Made by a program: the position numbers and the translations under genes
Part shown: positions 1 through 5,620 of the stretch, piece after piece
Layout: every line of letters starts with the position of its first letter
Numbering within the stretch: position 1 is the stretch's first letter
Assembly: GCA_003661385.1 (NCBI GenBank)
Contig: QMWA01000119.1
Span: 1-5,620 of the forward strand
Source of the DNA: Thermoproteota archaeon
GTDB taxonomy: Archaea > Korarchaeota > Korarchaeia > B14-G2
Length of the DNA: 5,620 bases
Direction: 5' to 3'
The notes under the pieces: generated by a model
What the model was told of the DNA's origin: nothing
What the model saw: only the letters and a program-made list of their open reading frames with translations
Databases searched by the model: none

Positions 1-683
1 GCAGCTCTCCCTAGCAGCTCTGTTGGAACAGCTTTCATGTAGTCTCTGAGCTTGCTGCCGGCTTTGCTGACATAGTAGGCCAACCCCTCCTCAGCCGCCT
101 CCCTTAAGCTGGACACCATCCTAGCTAGCCTTATCTCCCATAGCCTGGTCTTACTGAAGCTCTCCTCAAGCCTACTCAAGGTCTCCAGGATGACGTAGTA
201 GTGTAGCCCAGCCGTCTCCTCAACTAGGGGAAGAACGCTTTTCTCACACTCACTGAGGGGCAATCCAAGGATTGCTGCCGCTGTCAAGGCTCTAGCTTGG
301 AGCACTCTGCTTCTCTCAACCCCATAGGGAGGTACCACCATGGCCTTAGACGTGACTGTTCCTTCACCTCTAGCTTTAGCTGCTGCTGACACACACCAGA
401 CCCCGAGAGCTCTTCTAAGCTCGCCTACGAGCTCAGCTCCCATCGGGATGTTCTCAGCAATGAAGTCAAAGGTCTCTGAGAGCTGGAGCATCAGCTTATC
501 ATTGAGGTCTCTTAGCCCATGTGCTCTAGCAGCCAGCTTAGCATATCTCGTCTTAGCCAAGACTGCTTGGAGCTCAGATGTGCTCCTGCAGCCCATTATA
601 GCCTCATAGTCCTCCCTATTCAGGAGCTTCCCAATCTGGGCCCTCAGCCTCGACGTAAGATAGCTATACCTCCTACTCTCCAA
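1..683 (-). CDS. Diverged A-type ATP synthase subunit C-like protein (AC39/d family), C-terminus cut off by window edge
   Basis: The minus strand is open for 227 codons from a TTG at 683 to the window edge. The N-terminus reads Y-S-Y-x3-R-x-R-A (residues 6-15), then a Leu pair and Y26, C-R-S (32-34) and T-R-Y (45-47). This matches in order and spacing the plus-strand subunit C of this locus (Y-A-Y-x3-R-S-R-A, then Y28, R-S, Y50). A D-L motif (59-60) and a helix ending near P80 also line up. Where subunit C carries F-D-F-D-N-L-K-L-L-L-R, this protein has R-A-L-G-V-W-C-V-S-A-A-A-K-A-R (91-105), so the usual Asp and Asn are missing. Predicted soluble, helical and membrane-peripheral. The TTG is preferred because it puts the Y-x-Y motif at the family position, has GGGGAG just upstream and overlaps the previous gene by only 40 nt; a GTG at 728 is the alternative. 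I infer a subunit C paralogue. Its exact role, socket protein or regulator/assembly factor, is unknown. Confidence 0.62.
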   Translation of the reverse strand, partial: MESRRYSYLTSRLRAQIGKLLNREDYEAIMGCRSTSELQAVLAKTRYAKLAARAHGLRDLNDKLMLQLSETFDFIAENIPMGAELVGELRRALGVWCVSAAAKARGEGTVTSKAMVVPPYGVERSRVLQARALTAAAILGLPLSECEKSVLPLVEETAGLHYYVILETLSRLEESFSKTRLWEIRLARMVSSLREAAEEGLAYYVSKAGSKLRDYMKAVPTELLGRA

Positions 684-868
684 GCTCTCCCCTTCTGACC
701 TAGCTCCTTCCTCAAGATCATCAGCCACACCAGGAGTGTGCCAACTATCACACCCAGCAGCGCTCCAAGCTCAGGCTGATAGCCCATCCTCTTAGCCAGA
801 TAGTACCCGACCATAGCTAAAGCTAGAATATCGAATGGAAGTGAGAAGTACCACATTGCCTTAGCCAT
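644..868 (-). CDS. Small two-helix membrane protein, AtpZ/AtpI-like (minus-strand copy)
   Basis: About 74 residues from an ATG at 868. An in-frame TTG at 880 would add four residues (M-S-S-E). Two hydrophobic segments, roughly residues 7-25 and 35-53, are joined by a short basic turn (A-K-R-M-G-Y-Q-P-E), followed by a strongly basic tail (R-K-E-L-G-Q-K-G-R). The pattern G-Y-Y-L-x-K-R-x-G-x-x-P then a Gly-bearing second helix is that of the AtpZ/AtpI family, found at the head of bacterial F-type ATPase operons and linked there to c-ring assembly and Mg2+ handling. The plus-strand gene at 941 has the same layout. A GGGGGGAG run at 889-882 could serve as ribosome binding site for the ATG, at a rather long 13-nt spacing; it is too close to the TTG. 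Its 3' end overlaps the next minus-strand gene by about 40 nt, suggesting translational coupling. Family assignment is from pattern only. Confidence 0.6.
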   Translation of the reverse strand: MAKAMWYFSLPFDILALAMVGYYLAKRMGYQPELGALLGVIVGTLLVWLMILRKELGQKGRAWRVGGIAILRRG

Positions 869-904
869 CTCGCTGCTCAAGCTCCCCCCAGATACGCCTG
901 CACC

Positions 905-917
905 TAAGTTTTAAATC
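905..917. promoter_or_regulatory. Shared TATA box of the divergent promoter
   Basis: TTTTAAAT at 909-916 contains the palindrome TTTAAA centred at 912.5, so it reads as an archaeal TATA box on both strands. The plus-strand start codon at 941 lies 28 nt from the centre, which predicts a very short leader or leaderless mRNA; no Shine-Dalgarno sequence stands directly before it. The minus-strand start (868, or 880) lies 33-45 nt away on the other side. It is the only good TATA candidate in the 72-nt space between the divergent genes. Direct mapping of transcript starts is lacking. Confidence 0.6.
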
Positions 918-940
918 TTGAACTCTGAGGCTAGTCTCCT

Positions 941-1150
941 ATGCGTAAAGACATCGTCATTCTACTCAAGACGCTGGCCATCGGACTTGAGCTCCCAGCT
1001 CTAGTGCTAGCTGGGGTGCTGGCCGGCCTCCTCATTGGGAGGAGGTTGTCGCCTATAGTAGCGTTTATACTATCTCTCGCTGGGGGGCTACTTGGCCTCG
1101 CAGCAGGCACCCTGCTGTTCCTCAAGCTGGTACGCTACATAGTGAGGTGA
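941..1150 (+). CDS. Small two-helix membrane protein, AtpZ/AtpI-like (plus-strand copy)
   Basis: A 69-residue protein with a short basic N-terminus (M-R-K-D), a first hydrophobic helix at about 11-32, a tight basic turn G-R-R-L-S-P (33-38), a Gly-rich second helix at about 39-61, and a basic end (K-L-V-R-Y-I-V-R). The order G-L-E-L, hydrophobic helix ending in G, basic turn with S-P, then G-G-L-L-G-L-A-A-G is a good pattern match to AtpZ/AtpI-type proteins of bacterial ATP synthase operons, which are proposed to help build the c-ring or move Mg2+. Here it is the first gene of a transcript containing subunit C and stands shortly before the c-ring gene, which fits an assembly role; that role is inference. 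The start is the only ATG near the promoter and is probably leaderless. Its stop codon forms part of the ribosome binding site of the next gene. Such short membrane proteins match by pattern easily, so the family call is moderate, while the gene itself is well supported. Confidence 0.68.
   Translation: MRKDIVILLKTLAIGLELPALVLAGVLAGLLIGRRLSPIVAFILSLAGGLLGLAAGTLLFLKLVRYIVR
1144..1150 (+). promoter_or_regulatory. Ribosome binding site of subunit C, fused to upstream stop
   Basis: GAGGTGA complements the archaeal 16S rRNA 3' end and stands 4 nt before the ATG at 1155. Its last three bases are the TGA stop of the small membrane protein gene, so termination and re-initiation are closely coupled. 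It fixes the subunit C start. Confidence 0.75.
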
Positions 1151-1154
1151 CTGG

Positions 1155-2201
1155 ATGCTAGCTGGAGCTTCCGTGTACGCGTATGCGAACGCCCGCTCGA
1201 GAGCTTTACGCTCCTTCATGCTGACTCCAGCAAACTACGACACGCTCCTAAGAGCCAGGAGCCTGCCTATGATGATCCAGACCCTTCTCTCGATGCCAGC
1301 TTACTCCCAGTACGCTAGGGAGCTCATGCAGGCTAAGACGCCAGCTGACCTTGAGGCAGTCCTCATAAAGGACTACTACGACAAGGTGAGCAGGGTTTCA
1401 AGCTGGGTACCCGAGAGAAACGCCAGGCAGCTGCTTAGAACCCTCTCAATGAGGTTTGACTTCGACAACCTCAAGCTGCTGCTTAGGGCTGCGGTCACCA
1501 AAGCTGAAGCCAGCGAGGTCACCCGGCTTCTAGTCCCTTCACTACGCTACCCTCCAGATGTGGCTGCTAAGCTCGCTGAGCGGGCAAGCGTGGACGACGT
1601 GATAGCGTCAGTATGGGATTCCTCCCTCCGCTCTCTCCTAATGGAGGCGAAGAGAGCTGCTGAAGAGCTTAAGAGCCCTCTCCCGCTCGAGCTGACAGTC
1701 GACAGGTACATGGCTGAGCTCCTCTGGAGGCAGTCTCAGCAGCTACCTGAGGTATCCAAGCAGGCTGTAAGGCACCTTCTTGGAGTTGAGCTGGACTCTA
1801 AGGCCATCCTAGCGTGCTTGAGAGCTAAGGCCCTCAGGGCGAAAGCAGAGGACATGGAGCTCATAGTTCCCAAGATGAGGTACAGGCTTGGAGAGGACCT
1901 AGAGAAGGCTATGAGGGCAGCTACGCTGAATGAGGCCATGAGAACTCTTGCTGAAGGCTCGTACTCCAGCGTGCTAAGGGGGTCTCAGTCTCTCAGCGAC
2001 GTAGAGAGAAGGCTGACCCTCTACATGATAGAAGTCAACAAGCAGGTATTCATCCAGTATCCATTCCAGCTTACTGTCGTCATAGCATTCCTAAACCTAA
2101 AGTACTATGAAGTACGCAACGTGAGGAGCATAGCAATTGGGAAGTTCTACGAGCTTCCACCTAATGTGATTAGAGGTGTCATCTACCACTCTATCACCTA
2201 A
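1155..2201 (+). CDS. atpC: A-type ATP synthase subunit C (central-stalk socket, V-type subunit d homologue)
   Basis: The 348-residue product has the usual length of archaeal subunit C (AC39/d family). This funnel-shaped helical protein sits on top of the membrane c/K ring and couples it to the central D-F rotor. Visible family marks are the N-terminal Y-A-Y-A-N-A-R-S-R-A (8-17), F-D-F-D-N-L-K-L-L-L-R (101-111), a second-repeat counterpart G-V-E-L-D-S-K-A-I-L-A-C-L-R-A (210-224), and a C-terminal N-L-K-Y-Y-E-V-R-N-V-R (314-324) followed by G-K-F-Y-E-L-P-P (329-336). These mark three similar helical repeats of about 110 residues. There are no membrane segments, as expected for a peripheral subunit. 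The ATG is fixed by GAGGTGA 4 nt upstream and places the Y-x-Y motif at the normal distance from the N-terminus. It is co-transcribed with the small membrane protein before it, while K downstream has its own promoter. Codon use is mixed, with many T- and G-ending codons. Confidence 0.93.
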   Translation: MLAGASVYAYANARSRALRSFMLTPANYDTLLRARSLPMMIQTLLSMPAYSQYARELMQAKTPADLEAVLIKDYYDKVSRVSSWVPERNARQLLRTLSMRFDFDNLKLLLRAAVTKAEASEVTRLLVPSLRYPPDVAAKLAERASVDDVIASVWDSSLRSLLMEAKRAAEELKSPLPLELTVDRYMAELLWRQSQQLPEVSKQAVRHLLGVELDSKAILACLRAKALRAKAEDMELIVPKMRYRLGEDLEKAMRAATLNEAMRTLAEGSYSSVLRGSQSLSDVERRLTLYMIEVNKQVFIQYPFQLTVVIAFLNLKYYEVRNVRSIAIGKFYELPPNVIRGVIYHSIT

Positions 2202-2248: not shown

Positions 2249-2593
2249 ATGAAGAGAAGCATGCTGCTCCTATTCCTGCTAGCAGCCATAGCTGCCGCCC
2301 TCTCAGCCTTCGGCACAACTCTGCTGCTTGCCAGACAGGAGGGGGGCCCTCAGGGTGAAGCTGGGGGGTCAGCACGCGGCCTAGCCCTCTTAGGCGCTGG
2401 AGTAGCCATAGGGCTAGCTGGCTACGGAGCTGGCATAGGAATGGGCACTGCTGGAGCTGCTGCAGTCGGTGCTGTAGCAGAGAAGCCAGAGGTCTTCGGC
2501 AGGTCGCTAATATACATAGTGTTCATAGAGGCTATAGCCATCTATGGTCTAGTGGTAGCGCTGATGATCCTGATGAAGGTTCCCACGCTTTAG
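2249..2593 (+). CDS. atpK: A-type ATP synthase subunit K (c-ring proteolipid)
   Basis: The 114-residue product is a c-type proteolipid that forms the ion-carrying rotor ring in the membrane. The hairpin has a Gly/Ala-rich first helix (about 44-76, with G-A-G-V-A-I-G-L-A-G-Y-G-A-G-I-G), a polar loop A-E-K-P-E (77-81), and a second helix (about 86-108) carrying the ion-binding carboxylate E94 in F-I-E-A-I-A-I-Y-G. It is a single-hairpin form with one carboxylate. A further hydrophobic stretch (5-27) after M-K-R precedes a Gly-rich polar linker (about 28-43); it may be a cleaved signal peptide, as known for some archaeal proteolipids, or an extra helix. The position after E94 is Ala and the helix-1 site matching the Gln of Na+-type rings appears to be Met65, which favours H+ over Na+ coupling (inference). 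It has its own promoter and ribosome binding site between C and A, which suits the higher copy number needed for a ring. Confidence 0.95.
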   Translation: MKRSMLLLFLLAAIAAALSAFGTTLLLARQEGGPQGEAGGSARGLALLGAGVAIGLAGYGAGIGMGTAGAAAVGAVAEKPEVFGRSLIYIVFIEAIAIYGLVVALMILMKVPTL

Positions 2594-2692: not shown

Positions 2693-4474
2693 ATGCCTGC
2701 CAAAGGTAGAATAGTGAGGATAGTGGGGCCAGTGGTCATTGCCGAGGGTATGAAGGGCAGCCAGATGTATGAGGTTGTATACGTCGGTGAGGAGAAGCTT
2801 ATAGGCGAGATAATAGGCCTCGAAGAGGATAAGGCCACTATACAGGTTTATGAGGAGACTGTAGGCTTAACTCCAGGTGAGCCTGTAGAGGGGACCGGCA
2901 GACCCCTGTCAGTTGAGCTTGGCCCAGGCCTAATAGGAAGCATCTACGACGGAGTTCAGAGGCCACTACCCTCAATATGGGACCTAGTAGGCCCCTTCAT
3001 AAGAAGAGGAGTAAAAGTCCCACCCCTATCAAGAGACAAGAAGTGGCACTTCATACCCAAAGCAGAGAAGGGAGAGAAAGTCGAGGCAGGAGACTTCATA
3101 GGTGTCGTCAAGGAAACCCCCCTAATAGACCACTACATCATGGTCCCCCCAGGAACCCATGGCAAAGTAGTTGAAGTAGCCCCAGAAGGAGAGTACACAA
3201 TAATGGACACCATAGCAGTCCTAGAGACCCCAGACGGCAAAAAGGAGCTCAACATGGTCCAAATCCAGCCCGTGAGAGTACCACGCCCATACAAGGTGAA
3301 GCTCCCAGCAAGCGGCCTCATGGCCACAGGCCAGAGAATAGTCGACCTCTTCTTCCCCATAGCAAAGGGAGGCACAGCTGCAGTCCCAGGAGACTTCGGG
3401 ACAGGCAAAACCGTCCTCCTACAGCAGTTCGCAAAGTGGTCTCAAGCCGACGTGTGCATTCTAGTAGGCTGCGGAGAGCGAGGCAACGAGATGGCAGACG
3501 TCCTAACCGGCTTCATGGAGCTAAAGGACCCAAGAAGCGGCAGACCCCTCCTCGAGAGGACCATAGTCATAGCCAACACCTCAAACATGCCCGTAGCAGC
3601 AAGAGAATCCAGCGTCTACTCAGGGATAACAATAGCAGAGTACTTCAGAGACATGGGCTACGACGTGTTCATGATGGCCGACTCAACAAGCAGGTGGTGC
3701 GAAGCCATGAGAGAGGTATCAGGCCGACTAGAGGAGATGCCTGGAGAAGAAGGCTTCCCAGCCTACCTAGCCTCCAGGCTAGCAGAATTCTACGAGAGAA
3801 CAGGCAGAGTCATAACACTAGGCAAACAAGAGAGAATAGGCTCCGTCACAGTAATAGGCGCCGTCTCACCACCGGGCGGAGACTTCTCTGAGCCAGTAAC
3901 CCAGAACACACTCAGAATAGTCAAAGTATTCCTAGCCTTAAGCAAGATGCTGGCTGAAAGAAGACACTTCCCAGCCATAGACTGGCTTGAAAGCTACAGC
4001 CTATACATAGACGCAGTAGCAGACTGGTGGAACAAGCTAGGCCCATGGAAAGAAATGAGAACAGAAGCCATGGCAATACTCAAAGAGGAAGCAGACCTAC
4101 AGGAAATAGTCCGCATAGTAGGCCCAGATGTCCTCCCAGAAAGGGAAAAGATGATCCTAGAGTCAGCCAGAATGATCAGAGACGACCTATTATACCAAAG
4201 CGCCCTCCACGAAGTAGACACCTACTGCCCACCCGAAAAATCCATCAAAATGATGGAAGTCATCCTGAAGTTCCACAAGCTAGGCATGCAAGCAGTCCAG
4301 AAAGGAGTCTCAGTCAAGGACATAAAAACCCTCCCAATAAGGTACAGGATAGCCAGGATGAAGGAGCTCCCATACGACAAGTTCATTGAGGAAGTCAAGA
4401 AGATAGAGAAGGACATGGAGGAGCAGTTCCAAAACCTAATTAAGAGCAAGGTTATGGAGGCTGCAGCGAGGTGA
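2693..4474 (+). CDS. atpA: A-type ATP synthase catalytic subunit A
   Basis: The 593-residue product is the catalytic subunit of the A3B3 head, which makes or hydrolyses ATP on the cytoplasmic side. The N-terminus [15 protein letters not shown] opens the beta-barrel domain (about 1-75). The bulge domain specific to A-type A subunits follows (about 115-190), then the nucleotide-binding domain: Walker A G-D-F-G-T-G-K-T at 233-240 (K239, T240), G-C-G-E-R-G-N-E-M at 259-267 with catalytic E262, Walker B ending at D330 in M-M-A-D-S-T-S-R-W, and [13 protein letters not shown] (347-359). The C-terminal helical domain is complete. Length is normal and no intein interrupts the P-loop. The second P-loop residue is Asp rather than the Pro I know from euryarchaeal GPFGSGKT. 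It is transcribed from its own promoter with atpB 4 nt downstream. Codon use is odd: the first 82 codons are mixed, but from about 2941 to 4380 T-ending codons nearly vanish. Confidence 0.98.
2941..4380 (+). other. Segment of atpA with third positions almost only A or C
   Basis: In the first 82 codons of atpA I count third positions T 18, C 17, A 21, G 26. In the next 200 codons (2941-3540) I count T 7, C 80, A 75, G 38. Only five T-ending codons follow between 3541 and 4380, after which ATT, ATT, GTT and GCT appear in the last 31 codons. The protein stays typical throughout, so the change is synonymous. Confidence 0.85.
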
Positions 4475-4478: not shown

Positions 4479-5620
4479 ATGAGCCTAGCTGCAAGAGACT
4501 ACTACACAATATCAGAGGTCAGAGGCCCCCTGCTGGTCGTTGAGGGGGTTCAGGGCGCCAAATACGGTGAGATAGTCGAGGTCATTACCTCAACAGGAGA
4601 AACAAGGCTAGGCCAAGTCATAGACGCCAGGTCAGATGTAGCCATAGTCCAGGTCTTCGGTGGAACCAGAGAAATAGATATAGTAGGGACGAGAGCCAGG
4701 TTCACAGGAGAAACCTTCAAGCTACCAGTCTCACTAGACATGCTCGGAAGAATATTCACAGGAATGGGCAAGCCCAGAGACGGAGGCCCCGAAATACTCC
4801 CAGAAGACGAGCTCGATGTCAACGGCGCCCCAATGAACCCCGCAGCAAGAGACTACCCAAGAGAATTCATCCAAACCGGGATATCAGCCATAGACGGCCT
4901 CAACACCCTAGTCAGAGGCCAAAAGCTCCCAATATTCTCAGGCTCAGGCCTCCCACACGCCGAAATAGCAGCCCAAATAGCAAGACAAGCCAAAGTCCTA
5001 GGGAAAGAAGAAGAGTTCGCCGTAGTATTCGCAGCACTAGGCATAACATTCGAAGAAGCCCAGTTCTTCATAAAAAACTTCAGAGAAACAGGCGCATTCG
5101 AGCACACAGTAGTCTTCATGAACCTAGCAAGCGACCCAGCCATAGAGAGGATAATCACACCAAGAGCAGCCTGCACAGTAGCAGAGTACCTAGCATTCCA
5201 ACACGGCCTACACGTCCTAGTCATAATGACAGACATGACAATGTACTGCGAAGCCCTAAGAGAGCTCTCAGCAGCCAGAGAAGAAGTCCCAGGAAGAAGA
5301 GGCTACCCAGGATACATGTACACAGACCTAGCCACAATATACGAAAGATGCGGCAGAATAAGAAAAGGAGCCCAAGGCACAGTCACACTCATGCCAATAC
5401 TCACAATGCCCTATGACGATATGACACATCCCGTACCCAACCTCACAGGATATATCACGGAGGGGCAGATCGTCCTCTCAAGAGGATTACATGCTAAGGG
5501 CATATATCCGCCTATTGACGTGTTTAAGTCGCTGTCGAGGCTGATGAAGGACGGTATAGGCCCGGGTAGGACCAGGGAAGACCATAAGGATGTGTTTGCT
5601 CAGCTTTATGCAGCTTACAC
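4479..5620 (+). CDS. atpB: A-type ATP synthase regulatory (non-catalytic) subunit B, 3' end cut off
   Basis: This gene is open for 380 codons to the window edge; roughly 80 residues of a normal B subunit of about 460 are missing. B alternates with A in the hexameric head and helps form the nucleotide sites without hydrolysing ATP itself. It starts with a beta-barrel domain ([15 protein letters not shown]). In place of a Walker A motif it has the degenerate [10 protein letters not shown] (153-162) expected of B subunits, with no P-loop Lys. Further marks are [25 protein letters not shown] and [15 protein letters not shown], all typical of archaeal B. It lies 4 nt after atpA and is probably translated by coupling to it. 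Codon use changes within the gene: 198 codons without any T-ending codon (4818-5411), then ordinary mixed use to the window end. Confidence 0.97.
4818..5411 (+). other. Segment of atpB with no T-ending codon
   Basis: Reading codon by codon, the 198 codons between GAT at 4815 and TAT at 5412 contain no T in the third position. Only 18 codons end in G, eight of them obligatory ATG. In the 69 complete codons that follow (5412-5618), 19 end in T and 22 in G. The encoded protein is a normal B subunit on both sides of the change. Confidence 0.88.

Follow-up and report, generated by a model that had tools for sequence, protein, structure and literature searches.

A diverged second socket-subunit gene encoded back-to-back with subunit C at a korarchaeal A-type ATPase locus

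What might an archaeal A-type ATPase do with two versions of the socket subunit of its central stalk? The question is raised by a 1.74 Mb archaeal metagenome-assembled genome (206 contigs, 91% complete), whose ATPase inventory comprises one gene for the rotor-ring proteolipid, subunit K, and two genes for the socket, subunit C. The stretch analysed here, referred to as the window, is a whole contig of 5,620 bases (contig C119), and the genome has 28 relatives in its phylum. Two units diverge from about base 910, each consisting of a small membrane protein gene followed by a subunit C gene; we call the right-hand pair z and C and the left-hand pair z' and C'.

The ATPase locus and its divergent units

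The mirror-image layout described in the initial annotation holds for all four genes as placed (Table 1). The left-hand unit had been taken to end at base 1, which is merely the end of the contig; the gene goes on into a second contig, C35. The start of C35 is the exact reverse complement of the first bases of the window, the overlap is unique in the genome, and across it the C' frame runs for 70 further codons to a stop, giving a complete 312-aa protein whose C-terminus, ...LLDYPFQLPVAIGAIFLVWLECYNLNVALSKVAGEVEGGEALELIVL, is the counterpart of the right-hand C motif IQYPFQLTVVIAFLNLKYYEVRNV.... The start codon is a GTG at 728, and an alternative TTG at 683 would give 297 aa. The fact that the contig ends within C', in a fragmented genome, might suggest that the left part is an artefact of assembly or binning, but the exact and unique overlap, the continuous frame that delivers a C-terminal family motif, and a tetranucleotide signature in which both contigs fit their own genome (0.89-0.96, vs 0.39-0.72 for other archaea) render this highly improbable. 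Contamination of the two contigs is likewise ruled out by their composition.

Table 1. Features of the locus (window positions unless another contig is named)
Feature	Position	Strand	Remarks
C' (diverged subunit C/AC39 paralogue)	3..728	-	first 242 of 312 codons; runs off the contig; matched by PF01992 and the family profile
C' remainder	contig C35, L038:124-334		joined through a 123-base overlap
Overlap with contig C35	1..123 = L038:1-123		reverse complement
z'	644..880	-	78-aa small membrane protein, hairpin; TTG start; overlaps the C' start
TTTTAAA	909..915		TATA-like box between the divergent units; from word count
z	941..1150	+	69-aa two-helix membrane protein; sub-threshold PF09527 match
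C (subunit C, socket/central stalk)	1155..2201	+	348 aa, full length; PF01992 191 bits
K (rotor-ring proteolipid)	2249..2593	+	sole K found in the genome
A (catalytic subunit)	2693..4474	+	
B (subunit B)	4479..5620	+	cut by the contig end

With both contigs joined and read in the orientation of the window, the gene order is E-F-D-I >< C'-z' <> z-C-K-A-B. Past the C' stop, which overlaps the end of gene I in a tightly packed arrangement, subunit I is convergent and abutting, and D, F and E follow; just one subunit D gene is seen at the locus. This order differs from that of other Korarchaeota ATPases, F-H-E-A-B-D-C >< K-I (a short E-like gene being read as H). A second ATPase was sought in the genome and none was found. 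Because one K gene and two socket genes lie at the only ATPase locus found, the duplicated socket proposed in the initial annotation is correct. Two further features of this ATPase can be recorded here. Subunit I (L038:331-2055) is compact: its 574 aa compare with about 800 aa in the majority of related Korarchaeota genomes. For subunit H of the peripheral stalk, the strongest candidate (G000:C1:33283-33507, minus strand; 31.8 bits, below the cut-off) is not near E but on a different contig.

Between the two divergent start codons there is a single TTTTAAA, within which TTTAAA is palindromic, in line with the earlier proposal of one promoter between the units. This word has 4 matches at 3 sites in the window, where 0.15 would be expected by chance, and the other sites lie only upstream of K (2206-2213) and A (2651-2657). 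Judged from their sequence and position, these sites fit three archaeal promoters, the first of them common to both divergent units. A scan for bacterial-type promoters returned nothing.

The small membrane proteins are less easily placed. AtpI and AtpZ (PF09527) are helpers encoded in F-type ATP synthase operons, and z and z' resemble them in being short membrane hairpins whose genes open an ATPase operon, but neither attains the family cut-off: z scores 17.9 bits against a cut-off of 26.6, a level that arises in most archaeal genomes as membrane-protein background, and z' gives no match to PF09527. We have therefore dropped the label AtpZ/AtpI-like given to both in the initial annotation. 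In z' the first helix is weak by hydropathy and the second strong, and the similarity between z and z' is marginal. A profile started from z' alone finds, among 4,577 ORFs, a 202-aa protein ending in a similar membrane hairpin (E 0.006) in G014, a Korarchaeota genome of the same class; the shuffle Z for this pair is 8.4, a value that exaggerates significance where membrane helices are compared. That protein (L081:9829-10434) has an apparent DNA-binding-type N-terminus in addition to the hairpin, has no match in Pfam, and its gene converges on that of a subunit C that has itself diverged very far. Apart from it, no equivalent small two-helix gene was found near C in other Korarchaeota loci.

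Descent of C' and what it has kept

Is the left-hand protein a subunit C at all? It scores 38-39 bits against PF01992, above the curated cut-off of 29 bits, as compared with 191 bits over profile positions 1-337 for the right-hand C, which together with its neighbours K, A and B is a standard subunit C, as first annotated. Against a family profile built from 76 C proteins, with this genome left out, C' scores 39.0 bits (E 5.5e-12), its N- and C-terminal segments matching in order, and 0 of 200 shuffles pass. The matching segments are residues 17-97 (window about 680-438) and about 233-298; in profile-profile (HH) comparison the first has a probability of 93.7% (shuffles at most 0.6%) and the last 80 residues an E of 0.0012, while the middle, residues 98-232, finds no match in the C family. 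Codon use is coding-like in the frame of C' only and resembles that of the other subunits. The initial annotation had allowed that the left-hand protein might fit another family better; the search was run, and no Pfam family other than PF01992 was found above its cut-off. On these matches, C' is by descent a genuine homologue of subunit C, though one that has diverged very far. TIGR02923 (the AhaC equivalog) scores C' at 30.4 bits, below its cut-off of 240.5, and the ordinary C of this genome also falls below it, at 132 bits. Among PDB sequences the right-hand C found Thermus subunit C (1r5z); a search with full C' found no relative.

Structure prediction was aimed at the three-lobed funnel of subunit C. 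A model of 242 residues of C', made with an alignment that itself consisted of C proteins and missing the C-terminal 70 residues (pLDDT 64.8), has subunit C/d proteins as its first 9 Foldseek matches, with E of 0.019 to 0.17 and TM of 0.34-0.40, and is too limited to tell whether C' retains a cavity. VIA-align lists helical bundles of many kinds for the same model, with yeast subunit d at Z 7.6 over 201 residues (8eas_d) and Z 8.4 over 80 (5tj5_P), values within noise for helical models. A single-sequence fold of C' (pLDDT 40) is too poor for use.

It is informative to examine what C' has kept in light of the Thermus enzyme. There, the N-terminal and C-terminal regions of subunit C together form domain 1; the N-terminal helix binds ring residue E47 through R11 and R13, and inside the cavity the contact with subunit D is between H94 and its E74 (PMC5758568); coupling needs a proper fit of the D helix in the C socket, and the shaft-socket residues vary among species (PMC4355294). 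The block Y-x-Y-x3-R-x-R-A is present in both N-termini, as had been noted, and Thermus R11/R13 align with R14/R16 in C and R27/R29 in C', so that C' keeps the ring-contact arginine pair. The C-terminal glutamate behind a YPFQL-type helix, which is E in 70 of 72 family members, is kept as E286 in YPFQL...LECYNL, on contig C35.

The middle of the protein is another matter. H94 lies in the first of two D..N motifs of the middle domains and shaft cavity (DLHNLQ in Thermus, DFDNLK in C), and in the alignment C' lacks both of them, although its middle is too diverged for this alignment to be sure. The common spacing of later motifs that had been described is thus not borne out, since C' lacks the D..N motifs that come later in other family members. 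A D/E or N is kept at motif 1 in 71 of 72 other C proteins and at motif 2 in 70 of 72; both are missing in none of the 72. A simple pattern scan finds in C' no D/E..N-hydrophobic word but the C-terminal one; 15 other members also have one such word only and one member has none, so the scan is weak taken alone. Over all conserved positions, several genuine C proteins (the Staphylothermus group) are equally degenerate. With both motifs missing, we class C' as a homologue and not as a working subunit C.

Compared with the A/V-type subunit C (Thermus thermophilus 1r5z; PF01992, AC39), C' has in common the order of N- and C-terminal segments, the arginine pair, the C-terminal E..N motif and the gene neighbourhood. 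It differs in that the middle (domains 2 and 3) is unrecognisable and shorter, the protein as a whole being about 35 residues shorter than C, in the loss of both cavity motifs, and in being transcribed divergently beside a normal C. Since the arginines and the C-terminal glutamate are retained and both motifs are missing, we infer that the ring-seated half of C' has been kept and the conserved cavity lining is gone. Loss of the motifs in a middle where the alignment is uncertain would also follow from decay or from another fold. In one alternative reading C', with z', has left the ATPase, combining a remnant of domain 1 with a new middle for some other membrane job, and has stayed next to the operon for historical reasons; residues 98-232 have no match above cut-off in Pfam, just as they have none in the C family. 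We regard this as doubtful given the position of C' inside the split ATPase locus, the promoter region in common, and the retention of E286 and of the arginines that contact the ring.

Additional sockets in other archaea and the origin of C'

C' is known from one metagenome-assembled genome. Orthologues were sought in archaeal genomes, first 60 and then 394, as well as in viral contigs; these searches returned just the N-terminal block of ordinary C genes, and a search with peptide seeds among 84,980 named genomes found no close relatives of C. In a PF01992 search of 393 archaeal genomes, many second C genes proved to be part of a second full ATPase or split matches. In two cases the additional gene does amount to an extra socket. 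In one genome (G313, contig C76; L106:3680-5799), two full-length C genes with 40% identity stand in tandem, with I and two K genes close by, which makes this another, independent duplication of the socket. A single genus supplies the other case: three of its species (G031, G284 and G300) have a second C that is 53% identical to the operon copy and 66-80% identical among themselves (L087:9247-10278, L107:9209-10243 and L108:9938-10990), with no ATPase neighbours within about 10 kb. These cases resemble C' in providing an extra subunit C with no second A/B set nearby, and differ in being full-length, canonical and 40-53% identical to their partners. The suggestion that a duplicated socket is undescribed therefore needs to be narrowed: extra C genes occur in at least two other archaeal lineages surveyed, those copies being canonical and C' not. 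A further genome has a second subunit C gene that is broken, divided between frames and interrupted by internal stops (G315:C2; L109:9803-10608).

The intact duplicates bear on the possibility that C' is an alternative working socket, exchanged with C under other conditions and still passing torque while fitting the shaft in another way. That one organism should have two socket versions has a parallel in the d1 and d2 isoforms of eukaryotic V-ATPase subunit d, which have a single common architecture. At the locus described here, in contrast, one copy is highly degenerate and both copies lie together. The d1/d2 isoforms themselves are known (PMC4595830, PMC6594656). Retention of domain 1 and of the full-length order, the second full-length C genes of other archaea, and the differences between species in shaft-socket residues (PMC4355294) are all compatible with such an isoform. 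Its shorter length, the loss of both cavity motifs and a branch that is the longest among 74 C proteins (3.23) set C' apart from the other duplicates, and with just one subunit D gene seen at the locus, we consider a working isoform unlikely, if less so than departure from the ATPase.

Where C' came from is a related matter. Its long branch is placed without support; topology tests allow grouping with C (p-AU 0.37) and disfavour grouping with Korarchaeota, at a value above rejection (0.065), and grouping of C with Korarchaeota gives 0.126. In its tree, subunit A falls with Desulfurococcales (support 100/97) and not within the main Korarchaeota clade; this, together with a gene order unlike that of related Korarchaeota, makes replacement of the ATPase plausible. 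The operon may, on this evidence, have been acquired or replaced by transfer, and C' may have arisen by duplication, been left over or come in anew. A recent inverted duplication was rejected: the inverted DNA repeat arms are only short and weak, so any duplication would be old. Of the old inverted duplication of a two-gene module envisaged in the initial annotation, the duplication of C is supported; the module as a whole is weakened by the marginal similarity of z and z' and by a tree that gives C' no supported place.

These observations also frame the reading of C' as a gene in decay, whether it arose as a duplicate of C that failed or is what remains of the C of an earlier ATPase since replaced. 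The plausibility of replacement and the precedent of the broken second C in another genome favour it. Against it are the open frame of 312 codons with coding-like use, a start region of its own, a small partner gene, and the disfavoured grouping of C' with Korarchaeota C proteins, and we judge decay to be the most improbable of the functional and evolutionary readings weighed here, behind even departure from the ATPase.

A possible role on the rotor ring

The reading that we place ahead of isoform, exit from the ATPase and decay takes C' for a socket paralogue that binds the ring without coupling and acts as an assembly placeholder or ring cap; we give it a probability of about 0.4. We infer the ring binding, the absent shaft binding and the cap or assembly role alike. 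The initial annotation had offered a cap or chaperone among its suggestions, and this part fits the kept ring-binding domain 1 and the lost shaft-cavity motifs, the mechanism itself being conjectural. A more specific version, that C' is a dedicated paralogue that docks on the ring by its ancestral domain, is unable to take the shaft and is encoded back-to-back with the real socket as its cap or placeholder, is more tentative still, and less likely than not.

One can imagine how such a paralogue would operate. C' would probably be expressed from the promoter region common to z and C and would bind the K ring on its cytoplasmic side, either by itself or together with z', by way of domain 1, that is, the N-terminal helix with its arginine pair and the C-terminal helices. 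With the conserved lining of the D-F shaft cavity lost, it would pass no torque. It may then serve as a placeholder or cap during ring assembly, or when the ring must stay closed and uncoupled, and be exchanged for C once the full motor is built. We know of no prokaryotic non-coupling socket paralogue that acts as a ring cap or assembly placeholder and, to our knowledge, how rotors are built in archaeal A-type ATPases, and how the ring is sealed before the shaft arrives, is largely unknown.

Even if C' were only a decaying copy, it would still document an unusual, split and rearranged ATPase locus. If the preferred reading of C' as a non-coupling socket holds, a variant that seemingly binds the ring and not the shaft would split the two tasks of the socket, and would provide a ready test protein.
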